From Candidatus Poribacteria bacterium (GTDB taxonomy: Bacteria > Poribacteria > WGA-4E > PCPOR2b): a stretch of DNA of 64,000 nucleotides. Positions 50,134 through 58,048 of this stretch are shown here, piece by piece. The notes beneath the pieces were generated by a model. It had not been told where the DNA came from. It ran no database searches and worked only from the letters and a program-made list of their open reading frames with translations. A program made the position numbers and the translations under genes. The number at the start of each line of letters is the position of its first letter. The stretch's first letter is position 1. The DNA lies in the NCBI GenBank assembly GCA_022822005.1, contig JAJECO010000046.1:1-64000 (forward strand), in the 5' to 3' direction.

Positions 50134-50421
50134 CTACTTCTGAAACTGGATCTCCCCATGCACCTCAATTGAATCGACAATCGCCATGATAACTGCATCA
50201 ACAGGCTTGTTCTTAGTGGCATCGGTTTGACGGGCAGAGCTTCCTGCTGCGGTGAGCACCAACTCGCCGACACCCGCACCAACAGCATCCACAGCAACCG
50301 TATATCGACTGAGGAGCGTTCCATCCAGCTCCGTATCCTGCACAATCAGCAACTTACTACCGATAAGTTTTTCATCTTTTCGTGTGGCAACAACTGTTCC
50401 CACAACTTTTCCAACCGTCAT
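50134..50421 (-). CDS. EutN/CcmL-family microcompartment vertex protein
   Basis: 95 residues from ATG 50421, the standard size. The start MTVGKVVGTVVATRKDEKL and later KLLIVQDTE, VDAVGAGVGELVLTAAGSSAR and AIVDSIEVHG are the EutN/CcmL (BMC-P) pattern, which forms pentamers capping microcompartment vertices. No BMC-H or BMC-T shell gene and no encapsulated enzyme lies nearby. It is upstream of the sensor kinase on the same strand. Either shell genes are elsewhere or this copy has another role. Confidence 0.85.
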   Translation of the reverse strand: MTVGKVVGTVVATRKDEKLIGSKLLIVQDTELDGTLLSRYTVAVDAVGAGVGELVLTAAGSSARQTDATKNKPVDAVIMAIVDSIEVHGEIQFQK

Positions 50422-50495
50422 GCGAAATCTTTCCCTGTCTGTTTTTAGGGCGAGAGCCACAAGCCGCGGGGGTATAATGCGCCGTCAGAACCTTA

Positions 50496-51909: not shown

Positions 51910-53514
51910 TTACCTAAGAACGGCATCCAGTTTGCGAAGAGCCGTGTTTTTTAAGTCGGCGTTCGCCTTGTACTGGTAGTATCCTTCGAGCACTTTACTT
52001 ACATGCCGTTCTGCTGAACGGGAGAGTTTTCCGTTTTTCCGCACGTTTCCTGGACCCACGTTATACGCGGCAAGTGCAAGACTGTAATCTCCATTATACC
52101 TTTCAAGCATCTCGTGCATATATTTGATTCCGGCATTTAGATTTTTAGTCGGGTGGAAACGTTCGTCGATACTGGGATCTGGTGTCGGCTTTCTTACATT
52201 CTCATAGGAAGGAACCTTGAGACCGAGCTCCCGCGCTGTCGGTGGCATTAATTGTAAGAGTCCAGCAGCACCATTACGGGAAATTGCTTTGGGATTGAAA
52301 GTTGACTCCCTTTTGACCAAGGCGAGGATAAGCTCAACCTCAACATCGTACTGCTCAACAATCCGCTTAGTTGGCGATTTCGTATCTTTCGCATCGCTGA
52401 CCACCCGCTTTGTTCCACTGGTACTAGGAGTTTCTATCCTCATAGAAGCCTTCCCGCTCTTCACGGAGGTTCCCCGCGCCTCGGTCAAGGTCGCCCTTGT
52501 CTTTATTAAAGTTTCTTTCCTCCCCGTAAGCGTTCCCCTTTTAGTCACGGAACCCGAAGCTGCCTGGTCGGATAAATCAAACGTCAAACCAACGGCGAGA
52601 AGATGTTTATATGCCAAGTCTGGCTGCCGCAGGTAGGCATAGTGGAGATGTTTACCAAAGATATCAACGGAAAATCCTACACTCCAGTCAGGTTCTGGCT
52701 GGCTCCCCATGAGATCGACGGCTGTGCCTAACCGGAGCGCAAGTCCATGCGCGCCCGCTTCAGCACCCACTCTAAGCTGCCACAACGCTGTATCCAACAC
52801 ACTGTTAAATTGAAGCAACTGAACGGGGGTCCACGCTAGCCCAACGGCAAATGTCTGATCGAATTGCTTTAGGAGTCTTCCCTCCCGGTCTGGAATGGTC
52901 ACGCCGGATATGTCTATCAATCTTGCACCCAAGATCAGATGCGGGGGCAGTTTTACAATAGCACCAAGGTCGTAACTTGGCGTCCATTGGCTATCAGGGT
53001 TAGGAGCGCGATTGTATCCAAGATTGCCGCCAAGCTGTAATCGGCTGCCAATGGATCGGGCATAAGACAGCAAGAATTGATTATAACCCCGTTCGAATGT
53101 CCCTACCGGGTTGTTCGGATGGTCATGGAAGAAGCGGTCCTCCCCATTCAGATCTAACGCACTGAAGCCAAGTGTTCCCAAATAATGGATCGGATACCCG
53201 AAAGAAACTGCGCCTTGGGACAGATCGTAAACCAAACTTCCGTACCGAAGGCTTGCAAGTCCTGCTGGATTCCAGAGGGCTCCTGCTGAGTCATCGGCAC
53301 TGCCAATGAACGCGCCACTCATACCGAGCGCCCTTGCACCAACCACCGGACGAAGGGCAGCCGAGGCAATCGAGATACACAAAAGCCAAAGTACCGCACT
53401 TCCAACGCAGAGTTGAAGCCAACGGTTACGATGTCTATATGTGGCCGGCAGGAGACGGACTCTTTTCTTTTTATTGGATTTCAAGACGCAGGCGGGGACG
53501 TGTTGCACTGCCAT
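51910..53514 (-). CDS. Outer-membrane beta-barrel fused to a lytic transglycosylase
   Basis: 534 residues from ATG 53514, which has GGAGAGG upstream. A long basic N-terminus leads to a signal-type hydrophobic segment (about 31-53). Residues about 58-330 resemble PorV/UPF0164-type outer-membrane barrels (GARALGMSGAFIGSADDSAGA, ALWNPAGLASLRYG). After a Ser/Thr/Lys-rich linker (about 330-385), residues 390-534 are an SLT lytic transglycosylase: catalytic E403 in LVKRESTFNP, GAAGLLQLMPPTA, and AYNVGPGNV. Joining a barrel to a murein-cleaving domain is unusual and suggests local wall remodelling around an outer-membrane protein. Confidence 0.85.
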   Translation of the reverse strand: MAVQHVPACVLKSNKKKRVRLLPATYRHRNRWLQLCVGSAVLWLLCISIASAALRPVVGARALGMSGAFIGSADDSAGALWNPAGLASLRYGSLVYDLSQGAVSFGYPIHYLGTLGFSALDLNGEDRFFHDHPNNPVGTFERGYNQFLLSYARSIGSRLQLGGNLGYNRAPNPDSQWTPSYDLGAIVKLPPHLILGARLIDISGVTIPDREGRLLKQFDQTFAVGLAWTPVQLLQFNSVLDTALWQLRVGAEAGAHGLALRLGTAVDLMGSQPEPDWSVGFSVDIFGKHLHYAYLRQPDLAYKHLLAVGLTFDLSDQAASGSVTKRGTLTGRKETLIKTRATLTEARGTSVKSGKASMRIETPSTSGTKRVVSDAKDTKSPTKRIVEQYDVEVELILALVKRESTFNPKAISRNGAAGLLQLMPPTARELGLKVPSYENVRKPTPDPSIDERFHPTKNLNAGIKYMHEMLERYNGDYSLALAAYNVGPGNVRKNGKLSRSAERHVSKVLEGYYQYKANADLKNTALRKLDAVLR

Positions 53515-53571
53515 TCCTCTCCAATGTTCAGGGTAAAAAATTTGGCTGTGACAAAGCAGGTTCACCCGTTG

Positions 53572-54057
53572 TCAATTGGCAACGGTGAGTAGTATGGTTT
53601 GGGTTGATGTCAAGACTTCAGTATCGGTATCGACACCTGACGATTGCACCGAAATCACTTGGTTAATTGCTGTAACAACAAGCTGGAGCACTTCGACTTT
53701 GACTGTGCCCTCCGACTTCTTTGGAGCAGACCAAATCGCTGTATTTTGATCCGTGGAGGTCAATATGCCGTAACCGGTTGTGTTGATCCAACTAAAAATG
53801 ATATTTGAGCCCGGAAGTTCGTCAACAGTTGCCGTCAGGTTCACTGTCTCACCAGCCTGAACAGTATCTTTGCTTACATCGACATTGACCTTAAGCGACT
53901 GATTTTCCACGTCTGTTTGTGTAACCGTAGCGTCGGTTTCTTCAGACTCTCGCAGGGGGTTTTCGACAGAACTCCCTCCACAACCGAGCAAGCATAAGGC
54001 AATGGTGGGTAAAACCATGCGTGACAGCACTGGCGCTATATCCAAGATTTTGATCAT
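53572..54057 (-). CDS. Lipoprotein with an Ig/PKD-like domain
   Basis: 161 residues. The signal ends in the lipobox LLGC with Cys26. After a short acidic linker, residues about 55-155 look like one immunoglobulin/PKD-type beta sandwich: VNVDVSKDTVQAGETVNLTATV then NIIFSWINTTGYG. It lies just upstream of the barrel-transglycosylase gene on the same strand, 57 bases away. It may be a partner at the outer membrane. No enzymatic motif is seen. Confidence 0.7.
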   Translation of the reverse strand: MIKILDIAPVLSRMVLPTIALCLLGCGGSSVENPLRESEETDATVTQTDVENQSLKVNVDVSKDTVQAGETVNLTATVDELPGSNIIFSWINTTGYGILTSTDQNTAIWSAPKKSEGTVKVEVLQLVVTAINQVISVQSSGVDTDTEVLTSTQTILLTVAN

Positions 54058-54178: not shown

Positions 54179-55306
54179 TTAGAGTTTCGGATATTTGGGA
54201 ACGTCTTTATAGTGTCTCCAACTCTCAGCGTAGATCTTCCAAAGCCCGTCGGCGGGATCCACCATAAAAACCAACTCTTTCTTGCCGTAATCTGAGTAAG
54301 CAGGTTGACTGCCAGAAGCACGAGTACCGACAAATTCTTGGAAGAAATTGACATCCGCCACAGCATTATCCCCACTGATTTGCAGTTGAGAAATGTTCAC
54401 TCTAATTTTGCTATACACTGCATTAAGGGATTTCATCTTCTCACGCAACTGTTTTTTGTTCAATCGAGTCGCGTGTTCTCGTCCCTTGGTAATAGTAACC
54501 CTTGTAATCTCAGCATCCTCTGCATACTTAGACATATAAGTTTTAAGATTCTTGCCCTGCCAAGCCTGCTGCCATTCTCCCAAAACCTGACTCAATTTAA
54601 GCTGGGTATCGAGCGGCGTCTCACCAACAATCGGCGAGGTATCTTCTGGTGCAGCGGTTCGAGACGGTGTAACAACCTTGTTGGGAAGAACCGAAGGATT
54701 AAAAGGCTGCGACGGAGGATTTTCGGGGGTTGGATTGGCGGATTGTGCAACGATTTCTTCGTCATCTTGAACGATATATTCCTCGGTAATATCGGAATAT
54801 TCCAAGTCATCCTGAATTCTGTCATCTATCAGTTTCCAGCGTTGTAAGAGCCCCCGCTTTTCAACAATTATATCCCGATAAATTACAACTAAAACCTTGC
54901 CGTCTTGATAGAGTGTAACAGGGATGCGTTCAATCTGCTGCCGATTTGCGTTCTTAGGATCTGTCTGGGGACGGAGTCCAGCTATATCCACTTCAATCTT
55001 TTCTCTACTAAACAACTTCAATGCGCGTTCGTACTGACTCCGGTTTTTGATCTGTGCGGTCGAATCCCACAGCTGCTGATACAGCCCCGGTTGTTTTGAT
55101 TCGACAGCTTGCTTCCACTGTTGAAGGAAAGGTTCAATCGCTCCAGTTGTTTCAATAATCTGTAGTCCGAGTACCATTGCCAGGAGGATGACGGCTGCGC
55201 CGATAATACCGATCATACCAAAGAGGGTATTGGGATTTTGAAATGCGGTGGTAAATTCATTCTTACCGGACCGCATCATCTGTCTAGCGAAACGATTTGC
55301 TTGCAT
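54179..55306 (-). CDS. Membrane-anchored protein with NTF2/SnoaL-like domains
   Basis: 375 residues; ATG 55306 has GGGGGGTAG upstream. One membrane helix (about 29-51) is followed by an NTF2-like region (about 58-170), a proline/threonine-rich linker (about 190-235) and a second NTF2/SnoaL-like domain ending WKIYAESWRHYKDVPKYPKL. That ending closely matches the C-terminus of the neighbouring lipoprotein (WKIFRESWRIYEAVPRYG), so the domains are paralogous. It lies 12 bases downstream of that gene. Role unknown; a cell-envelope scaffold is plausible. Confidence 0.7.
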   Translation of the reverse strand: MQANRFARQMMRSGKNEFTTAFQNPNTLFGMIGIIGAAVILLAMVLGLQIIETTGAIEPFLQQWKQAVESKQPGLYQQLWDSTAQIKNRSQYERALKLFSREKIEVDIAGLRPQTDPKNANRQQIERIPVTLYQDGKVLVVIYRDIIVEKRGLLQRWKLIDDRIQDDLEYSDITEEYIVQDDEEIVAQSANPTPENPPSQPFNPSVLPNKVVTPSRTAAPEDTSPIVGETPLDTQLKLSQVLGEWQQAWQGKNLKTYMSKYAEDAEITRVTITKGREHATRLNKKQLREKMKSLNAVYSKIRVNISQLQISGDNAVADVNFFQEFVGTRASGSQPAYSDYGKKELVFMVDPADGLWKIYAESWRHYKDVPKYPKL

Positions 55307-55318
55307 CTGCCTACCCCC

Positions 55319-56659
55319 CTAATTAAACGTAGTACCGTACCTTGGAACAGCTTCGTAAATACGCCAACTCTCACGGAAAATCTTCCACTCAACCCCAACT
55401 TGACGCGCCCACACCTCTCGCGTCCACAAATCGTGCAGAGCGGGCACCCCTCCACTCGCCGTATTTCGCGAAAGACGACTGAACCGATAGGTAGCAATGA
55501 CGCTTTCTCCGTCCGCATCAAATCTGGAACCCGTTTCCTGCCATTCGGCATTCACCATCTGTTTCAAAGCATCAACCATCTGCAGACGGTCAAGATCGGT
55601 TTGTTCTTCATTGCTAGACCGAATAACTGTCTGGTTTAGCGTCGCGTCTTGGGTATACATTCCCAAGTGTTGGTGCATATCTTTTGTTGCCCATGCAAGA
55701 GCCCACCCACTGATCGCCGCTCTACCGCTATTAATCTGTTCATCAGTCAGTGACGTACTGTTAGTTCGAACCGGCTGTTTTTCGCGCTGCTGCTGAACAT
55801 ACGCCTTTGCTTCCTGTCTTCTTCGGGCCAGCGTCTCTGTTAACACATTAGACCGATCTAGTTGTTCAATGTGTTTTGAATAGCTCGCTACCTGCACTGC
55901 TGCCTTCTCTCGCGCTGCCGACGCCTCCTTCCGCACTTTCTCCACCAACGATTGAGCCGCCGATAGTTCACGCCGCAATTGACGGATCTGACGCTCATGT
56001 TTTTCGACTTGACTCTGTGCCTGGAGAAGCTGTGCCTGCACCGAGCCTAACTTTGATTGAAGATCCGCGGCCTGCGCTTTGGCGTTACTATAATTGCTCA
56101 ATATCTCCCGGTGCGCTTGTTCTGCCTTTTGGAGTTTCTCGCCCATATCTGCTTGCAACTGAGTCTTTTGCATGTCCAATTGCTGGGCGTCCGTTCGAGA
56201 TTTTTCGAGTGCGTCATCTATTGTTTTTAGATCCGCTTCAAGCGTAACGATTTCCGCCTCCTTGCGCTTAATGATGGCATTGAATCCACTCCCCTGCGAT
56301 TTATACATCGCTTCCTGTTCAGCAATTTGTGCTTGAGCCAAAGCGCTATATGCCAAGTGCATCGCTCGAAGCCCATCCTTCGCACTTGCGGCTTCCTTCG
56401 CACGTGCAAGGTCATCTTCTGCCCGCTGCAAGGCATCTGAAGCAAGATCCTGAGCGTTGGCGAAATGCGCCTGTTCGATAGCCGTTTCAGACTGTGTGAT
56501 AACGGCATTGACATTTTCCAACTGAATCTTCCCAAGGGAACCGCTGCAGGCAATGAGGAGCATCGGCAGAAGGCATATCCATAGATGATGGAGGCAAATT
56601 TTCCCCTGAGTTCTAAGCAATCCCTGTTTTCCGATGCTTTTGTCTCTGAACGATTTCAT
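55319..56659 (-). CDS. Coiled-coil lipoprotein with C-terminal NTF2/SnoaL-like domain
   Basis: 446 residues. The signal ends in LLIACSG with lipobox Cys38. Residues about 50-300 are largely coiled coil with a DUF4398-like opening (AIEQAHFANAQDLASDALQRA) and runs such as AQLLQAQSQVEKHERQIRQL. The C-terminal domain (about 315-446) is NTF2-like and shares its ending with the next gene. The size and plan suggest a periplasm-spanning scaffold anchored by lipid. No catalytic residues are evident. Confidence 0.72.
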   Translation of the reverse strand: MKSFRDKSIGKQGLLRTQGKICLHHLWICLLPMLLIACSGSLGKIQLENVNAVITQSETAIEQAHFANAQDLASDALQRAEDDLARAKEAASAKDGLRAMHLAYSALAQAQIAEQEAMYKSQGSGFNAIIKRKEAEIVTLEADLKTIDDALEKSRTDAQQLDMQKTQLQADMGEKLQKAEQAHREILSNYSNAKAQAADLQSKLGSVQAQLLQAQSQVEKHERQIRQLRRELSAAQSLVEKVRKEASAAREKAAVQVASYSKHIEQLDRSNVLTETLARRRQEAKAYVQQQREKQPVRTNSTSLTDEQINSGRAAISGWALAWATKDMHQHLGMYTQDATLNQTVIRSSNEEQTDLDRLQMVDALKQMVNAEWQETGSRFDADGESVIATYRFSRLSRNTASGGVPALHDLWTREVWARQVGVEWKIFRESWRIYEAVPRYGTTFN

Positions 56660-57160
56660 TTTTTCGAACCCCTGAGTACGATTACTGATTTATGGTGAAT
56701 TATAGAAATAAGTAAACATTACCCATAACTCCGACCTTTGAGAGGTTTCCAAAGTCCCCCTGACAAGGGGGATTTAGGGGGTTGGCTGTGCAGTGGGAAT
56801 GTCTAAGTAATTGTAAAATCTACCATAGATTAATTTTTCCAATCGTTGGGCAATCACAATCCCTAATCCAGTAACCTCTGATTCTTTTCGATTTTCAGCA
56901 ACAATTCGATAAAACATCAGACAATTAGTCAATAAAAACGGATAAAGTGAGTGAAAAGTTGCAATTTGAATAGATTGCAGCCTAATGTACAACGTGACTA
57001 TTGCCAATTTGGTTGCTTTTTTCTTAAGGGGATAGACATAAGAGTTTTTGACAGATGACATAAAATATGCTATCGTTCTAATGATTAAAATTTTATCATA
57101 GTGAGGATTTCAGGCACTCCGAAATCCGTAGAAAAAGGGTCGGGCAAAAAAGATTTTATT
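56660..57160. other. Intergenic region with dispersed repeat
   Basis: About 500 bases without a convincing gene; a 95-codon leftward frame (56774-57061) has no ribosome site or family match. It contains a CCCCCTGACAAGGGGGATTT repeat (56752-56783) related to the one at 20978-21045. A GTG start at 57101 is open but the GTG at 57161 is preferred for the next gene. Confidence 0.55.
56752..56783. repeat. CCCCCTGACAAGGGGG-type repeat
   Basis: Palindromic CCCCCT/AGGGGG words; related in reverse orientation to the repeat at 20978-21045. Confidence 0.55.
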
Positions 57161-58048
57161 GTGAGAAAAGCGTTTCGTGCTTACACTTTAGTGATAATAG
57201 GACTGCTCTCTGTCTTTATACAGGGTTGCGGCGGTGACAAGGAGTCCCCTGATCGTGTCAAACCCGTTTCTGCCGACCCCCTTCCTCTCGCTAAACCAAG
57301 GGGGATGGTACTGATTCCCGCAGGCGAATTTCAGATGGGCGGGCACGATCGAGAGGCGGAGGCCAATGAACTGCCGGTGCACACGGTCTATATTGATGCG
57401 TTCTATATGGACAAACATGAGGTGACCAATTCAGAGTTTCAAAAGTTCATTCTTGCCAAACCAAACTGGCAAAGAGGGTGGATTAAGGATAGGTTCCACG
57501 ATGGACGATACTTGGAACACTGGAACGGGAATAAATACCCCAGAGGGTACGCAAACCATCCTGTAAGATATGTGAGTTGGTATGCGGCGGTGGCTTATGC
57601 ACGGTGGGCGGGAAAGCGACTCCCGACAGAAGCAGAGTGGGAGTATGCGGCACGTGGTGGATTGCAGGGCAAAAAGTATCCGTGGGGCGATGTCCCTGAT
57701 ACGGGGAAGGCGAATTACACCAGCGGTAATCCTGGCGATACAACGCCAGTGGGCAAGTATCCGTCCAACGGGCACGGCTTGCATGACATGACAGGTAATG
57801 TAGCAGAATGGTGTCTTGATAAGTATGATAAGAATTTCTATTCTATATCTCCACGTGAGAATCCGCTTTCGGGTGCCGAGAATGTGAATTGGTTTATCGG
57901 TCATTTCACAAGGGTTGAAACCGATCGCGTGGTGCGCGACGGTTATTGGCACCACAGTCCAAAGGGGTTGCGCATCTCTATTCGCAGCCCAGGTTCGCCT
58001 TCGGACTGCTACGGCGGTGGCGGTTTTCGTTGTGCTCGGACTCAATAA
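57161..58048 (+). CDS. SUMF1/formylglycine-generating-enzyme-fold lipoprotein
   Basis: 295 residues from GTG 57161, which gives a clean lipoprotein signal (MRKAFRAYTLVIIGLLSVFI then QGC, lipid site C23). The domain begins PRGMVLIPAGEFQMGG and continues with DAFYMDKHEVTN, YVSWYAAVAYARWAGKRLP, EAEWEYAARGG and DMTGNVAEWCLDKY: the SUMF1 (DUF323) fold. The paired catalytic cysteines of true formylglycine-generating enzymes are not seen, so it is probably a binding or structural member. It ends GGGGFRCARTQ as expected. Confidence 0.85.
   Translation: MRKAFRAYTLVIIGLLSVFIQGCGGDKESPDRVKPVSADPLPLAKPRGMVLIPAGEFQMGGHDREAEANELPVHTVYIDAFYMDKHEVTNSEFQKFILAKPNWQRGWIKDRFHDGRYLEHWNGNKYPRGYANHPVRYVSWYAAVAYARWAGKRLPTEAEWEYAARGGLQGKKYPWGDVPDTGKANYTSGNPGDTTPVGKYPSNGHGLHDMTGNVAEWCLDKYDKNFYSISPRENPLSGAENVNWFIGHFTRVETDRVVRDGYWHHSPKGLRISIRSPGSPSDCYGGGGFRCARTQ

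Follow-up and report, generated by a model that had tools for sequence, protein, structure and literature searches.

The window analysed here is the whole stretch of 64,000 nucleotides at positions 1 to 64,000 of contig JAJECO010000046.1, taken from a Candidatus Poribacteria assembly (GCA_022822005.1) of 6.0 Mb in 97 contigs. Poribacteria are uncultured bacteria best known from sponges and, to our knowledge, their cell-envelope biology is almost unknown. The window carries a gene whose product joins a signal peptide, a PorV-family barrel region, a variable linker and an SLT lytic transglycosylase domain (Table 1). The initial annotation had placed the barrel and an SLT domain with an intact Glu403 in one chain, and this is the case, as both lie in a single reading frame and the catalytic motifs are intact. 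GGAGAGGA stands before the ATG of the gene, and the same open frame reaches an upstream GTG at 53565. Behind the basic leader, the hydrophobic core of the signal peptide is followed by the sequence ASA and, after the cleavage site, ALRP. This site has no lipobox cysteine of the kind seen in lipoprotein-type (Mlt-class) transglycosylases, the cysteine of WLLCIS having a leucine at position -1 and not being conserved among the aligned relatives. The lipoprotein gene upstream is presumably co-transcribed with the fusion, both being on the same strand with a short gap between them. The window also includes a gene for a microcompartment vertex protein of the EutN/CcmL type.

Table 1. Features of the fusion locus and of its surroundings, in positions of the window.
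Feature	Position	Strand	Basis or remark
Barrel-SLT fusion gene, 534 aa plus stop	51910..53514	minus	ATG at 53514
Basic leader and signal peptide, residues 1-52	53359..53514	minus	read from the sequence
PorV-family region, predicted outer-membrane barrel, residues 53-318	52561..53358	minus	NF033709, hhalign, PDB bridge, conservation, dN/dS
T/S/P/K-rich linker, residues 319-375, variable in length and sequence	52390..52560	minus	alignment, dN/dS
SLT lytic transglycosylase domain (PF01464), residues 386-502	52009..52359	minus	Pfam
Codon of catalytic Glu403 (ES motif)	52306..52308	minus	alignments
Relic of the C-terminal end of LysM-M23, 14 codons, -1 frame	53474..53515	minus	overlaps the fusion start
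Lipoprotein, 161 aa, lipobox LLGC, one Ig/PKD-like domain	53572..54057	minus	directly upstream of the fusion
Two envelope-type proteins with NTF2-like C-termini	54179-56659	minus	
FGE-sulfatase-domain protein, lipoprotein-like start	57101-58048	plus	
EutN/CcmL-type microcompartment vertex protein	50134-50460	minus	PF03319, E 2.9e-29

The PorV/PorQ model NF033709 matches residues 55-167 of the window protein with 41.6 bits (E 1.1e-10), below its curated cut-off of 90, and a match to this model is found in all 44 fusion members that were aligned. The profile of these 44 barrels was compared by hhalign with the eight PorV-family paralogues of the window's genome, namely the proteins that score over the NF033709 cut-off. 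The alignment (probability 99.7%, E 6e-26) covers 251 of 268 columns and reaches the last strand, which ends with AVGLTF and includes the conserved residues G309 and F312. The paralogue profile in turn matches the solved PorV chain 6h3i_F over nearly its whole length (E 2.3e-26), and the same chain is the sole match up to E 1, at a weak E of 0.068, when the fusion-barrel profile is compared directly with the PDB. Residues 53-318 are thus firmly assigned by profile comparison to a PorV homologue, and they are predicted to form a closed outer-membrane barrel. AlphaFold2, run on only five close sequences, yielded no confident model, with pLDDT values of 37.5 for the full-length mature protein and 27.4 for the barrel alone. 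The initial annotation had described the N-terminal part as a PorV/UPF0164-like barrel. The full-length homology to PorV supports a barrel and bears out the PorV/PorQ part of this description, whereas the UPF0164 part falls away, the fusion having no Pfam match to that family. A fold other than a barrel would have spoken against the initial annotation, and the homology gives no sign of one.

With PorV/PorQ proteins (NF033709; 6h3i), the fusion shares the signal peptide and the signature GAR..GMxGAF...WNPAGL, and it can be aligned with them over the whole barrel. Unlike PorV, it scores under the curated family value and continues C-terminally into a linker and an SLT domain. Compared with the PorV of type IX secretion systems (T9SS), its barrel is a divergent one and not the equivalog, as NF033710 is absent among the matches of the fusion up to E 0.1. 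The stretches YDLSQG, DRF and NPxGTFExGxNQ are strongly conserved within the barrel.

The enzyme half is recognized by PF01464 with 107.9 bits for a cut-off of 21.3 (E 3e-31), and the same model matches 44 of the 44 aligned order-level members. The window protein displays the SLT motifs E403-S404, G418-L419-Q421 (GLLQ) and A483-Y484-N485 (AYN). E403 aligns with the glutamate of the wild-type soluble lytic transglycosylase chains 6fbt and 5ohu, and with a position occupied by glutamine in 6fcq. Across the 44 order-level members, E403, S404, G418, L419, Q421, Y484 and G487 are invariant. These residues, together with N485, are also invariant in a set of 13 rows that spans up to class level and includes one sequence of another class. 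As its catalytic residues are intact and invariant, the SLT enzyme is predicted to be probably active. Known family-1 lytic transglycosylases are soluble or lipid-anchored, and lytic transglycosylases owe their location to lipids, to partner proteins or to the binding of substrate. The fusion has in common with Slt70 and MltC (PF01464) the SLT family, the glutamate of the ES motif, GLxQ and AYN, but its anchor is a predicted transmembrane barrel, and no lipobox is present.

Purifying selection acts on both folded parts and far less on the linker. Indeed, the mean dN/dS within the genus is 0.09 in the barrel and 0.22 in the SLT domain, compared with 0.66 in the linker (residues 319-375), so that the folded parts are kept while their connection is loose. 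A Ser/Thr/Lys-rich linker able to cross part of the periplasm had been proposed. Its composition is confirmed, the linker being rich in T, S, P, K and Q, whereas the crossing length is not a conserved property, since it ranges from 9 to 70 residues among the 44 members. The higher conservation of the barrel relative to the enzyme suggests a role beyond anchoring.

The fusion is found in one reading frame in all 59 genomes of the order that were searched, i.e. the window's genome and 58 relatives, and in eight genomes of the same class outside the order (G061, G062, G063, G065, G066, G067, G069 and G070), belonging to four families. Two other genomes of this class carry the barrel and SLT parts either adjacent in different frames (G064) or at the ends of two contigs (G068). 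For the other classes of the phylum, represented by two genomes, the SLT part lies at a contig end in one (G060), and the other has only a separate SLT protein (G059). Judged by this distribution, the fusion is of ancient origin and has been kept throughout the main class of Poribacteria, and its absence from relatives, which would have spoken against the initial annotation, is encountered in none of the order relatives examined. The window's assembly is fragmented and the named relatives are metagenome-assembled, which might point to an artefact of assembly or gene calling, or else to a functionless accident of the lineage. The comparative data rule out such an origin, leaving it a negligible probability: 58 other genomes of the order and eight more at class level have the frame open, and both halves evolve under purifying selection.

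Outside the phylum, no barrel-covering match was present among the matches listed at E 1e-25 in a sample of 387 genomes, of which about 300 belong to other phyla, a search in which at most three candidates per genome were scored and which could miss rare fusions elsewhere. Among phage and plasmid records, none had one place covering 80% of the query, and the best places listed fall in its C-terminal part. No barrel-transglycosylase fusion was found by title or abstract in the literature searched, a body of texts that mostly excludes subscription papers. As far as this literature shows, a transmembrane barrel as the built-in anchor of a transglycosylase is apparently undescribed.

The neighbourhood of the fusion displays a conserved core, beyond which gene content differs between families. 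An Ig-like lipoprotein of about 155-200 residues is encoded upstream of the fusion at 41 of 43 loci, and the two loci where none was found start within 1 kb upstream of the fusion. In most relatives, a gene for a protein with a signal peptide, two LysM domains and an M23 peptidase domain stands between the lipoprotein and the fusion, and its 3' end overlaps the fusion start by tens of bases in many loci. This gene is present in order families f1 (in part), f3 and f4, and in class families f5, f6 and f8. The M23 domain was matched at E 3.5e-35 or better in the six order members tested, and the zinc-site motifs HxGxD and HLH are found in 53 LysM-M23 open reading frames at fusion loci.

A search of the locus gave no M23 match for families f2 and f7 or for any member of the window's genus. 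Read from these sequences, the gene has been lost in the window's genus, where the relic of its C-terminal end reads NGSATRPRLRLEIQ up to its stop, whereas the relative L042 has GHATGPHLHFEIRW. Another locus of the same family, L044, retains a longer decaying piece of the M23 gene. Elsewhere in the window's genome, the best-matching M23 sequence is similar in the catalytic part only, with 42% identity and no LysM match, and there is therefore no sign that the gene has moved. The M23 partner is not obligatory, since this genus has lost it and two further families lack it at the locus. In the window's genus, two envelope-type proteins with NTF2-like C-termini are encoded upstream of the lipoprotein, one with a Cds6_C domain and the other with DUF4398 and a coiled coil. 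No homologue of this pair was found at the fusion locus in other families, and its presence coincides with the absence of the M23 gene.

The simplest reading is a wall-remodelling module at the outer membrane, since an endopeptidase and a lipoprotein stand beside the fusion in most relatives. From its domain order, catalytic residues, selection on both domains, gene neighbourhood and class-wide distribution, the fusion is thus probably an outer-membrane-tethered family-1 lytic transglycosylase belonging to a small wall-remodelling operon module. Barrels of this kind insert into the membrane with their ends in the periplasm. The PorV-type barrel would accordingly span the outer membrane, its two ends on the periplasmic side, and the disordered linker would hold the SLT domain a few nanometres beneath it, next to the outer face of the wall. 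From there, the enzyme would cleave the glycan strands of peptidoglycan, while in most relatives the LysM-M23 peptidase would cut peptide cross-links, with the Ig-like lipoprotein as a putative operon partner. Such a module may serve growth, cell separation or local wall opening. It would offer a case in which one can test how bacteria keep a dangerous wall-cutting enzyme at the outer membrane, and it suggests that a wall-remodelling operon is widespread in Poribacteria.

The predicted general layout of the fusion is that of OmpA, namely an N-terminal outer-membrane barrel, a linker and a periplasmic C-terminal domain directed to the wall. However, the barrel belongs to another family, and an enzyme predicted to cut glycan strands replaces the wall-binding domain. 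The OmpA-like domain PF00691 is absent among the Pfam matches of the fusion, and three separate OmpA-domain proteins are encoded in the window's genome. A second likeness is offered by DipM and related LysM-LytM factors. DipM is reported to interact with the lytic transglycosylases SdpA and SdpB in Caulobacter (PMC10336132). The poribacterial LysM-M23 protein is similarly encoded beside, and presumably works with, a lytic transglycosylase. Whereas the domain of DipM is catalytically inactive (PMC10336132), the poribacterial M23 domain has intact catalytic motifs. Moreover, its transglycosylase partner is predicted to be membrane-tethered, and the window's genus does without the M23 protein.

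Other roles can be considered for a barrel of this family. In type IX secretion, PorV is a cargo shuttle that binds to the lateral opening of SprA (PMC7463736), and the fusion could be a part of a type IX-like system, with its barrel docking at the SprA/Sov translocon or at the attachment complex and its SLT domain opening the wall there to let the system or its cargo through. The window's genome does encode a SprA/Sov homologue of 2170 residues (L118:1870-8382, G000:C44; TIGR04189 E 1.5e-43, 148 bits for a cut-off of 200), and it includes 41 C-terminal sorting-domain matches in addition to the eight PorV-family proteins over the family cut-off. Such a role is nevertheless unlikely, as the barrel of the fusion diverges from the T9SS equivalog, NF033710 not being among its matches, and the genes conserved beside it encode a wall enzyme and a lipoprotein, with no recognisable T9SS genes among them. 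Furthermore, this genome encodes a large and diverse set of PorV-family barrels. As an observation in its own right, the SprA/Sov-like translocon and the 41 sorting-domain matches across the genome point to a type IX-like secretion system in Poribacteria. The FGE-sulfatase-domain protein of the window has GldK as its best NCBIfam match (E 4e-41, below cut-off), and it may be an ordinary FGE-domain protein.

Alternatively, the barrel could be a pore for wall turnover products or a small ligand, fed with anhydro-muropeptides by the SLT domain, its anchoring function being secondary. This would suit a barrel that is the most constrained part of the protein (dN/dS 0.09), with strongly conserved stretches, and that looks like more than a passive anchor; weak matches to FadL/TodX (PF03349, best E 0.0077) were also obtained in five members. 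Nonetheless, those PorV-type barrels whose function is known act as shuttles or anchors (PMC7463736), and the variable linker speaks against a tight coupling of enzyme and channel, making a pore quite improbable. The SLT part also matches BB0259, which hints at a flagellar role. This role was rejected for the window's genome, in which no Flg_bb_rod (flagellar rod) protein was found, and it is unlikely for the fusion. The assembly of an envelope-spanning machine, suggested by the initial annotation, is not supported either, as the conserved neighbours are the lipoprotein and the LysM-M23 protein rather than parts of a machine, and the genome yielded no flagellar rod protein.

Besides the SLT fusion, the window's genome encodes a second PorV-barrel fusion composed of the barrel, an Ig/FlgD-like region and a C-terminal SPOR domain (E 1.5e-10; L114:1044-3083, G000:C83:38543-40579). 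Its homologues are found in 58 of the 59 genomes of the order that were searched, and in several of them the match ends before the SPOR region. Because this conserved fusion exists in addition to the SLT fusion, it suggests that PorV-type barrels recur as anchors for wall-directed domains in Poribacteria. A further step, for now a doubtful one, would be to regard PorV-type barrels as a general anchor set, carrying SLT or SPOR domains, in which the SLT fusion opens the wall at type IX-like translocons. If true, a barrel family of secretion systems would have been turned into a targeted wall-cutting device. The same genome also encodes a PorV-family barrel protein of 715 residues (L116:1405-3552, G000:C89) with a long C-terminal extension, which has no Pfam match and looks transglutaminase-like by eye (GDCDDST).
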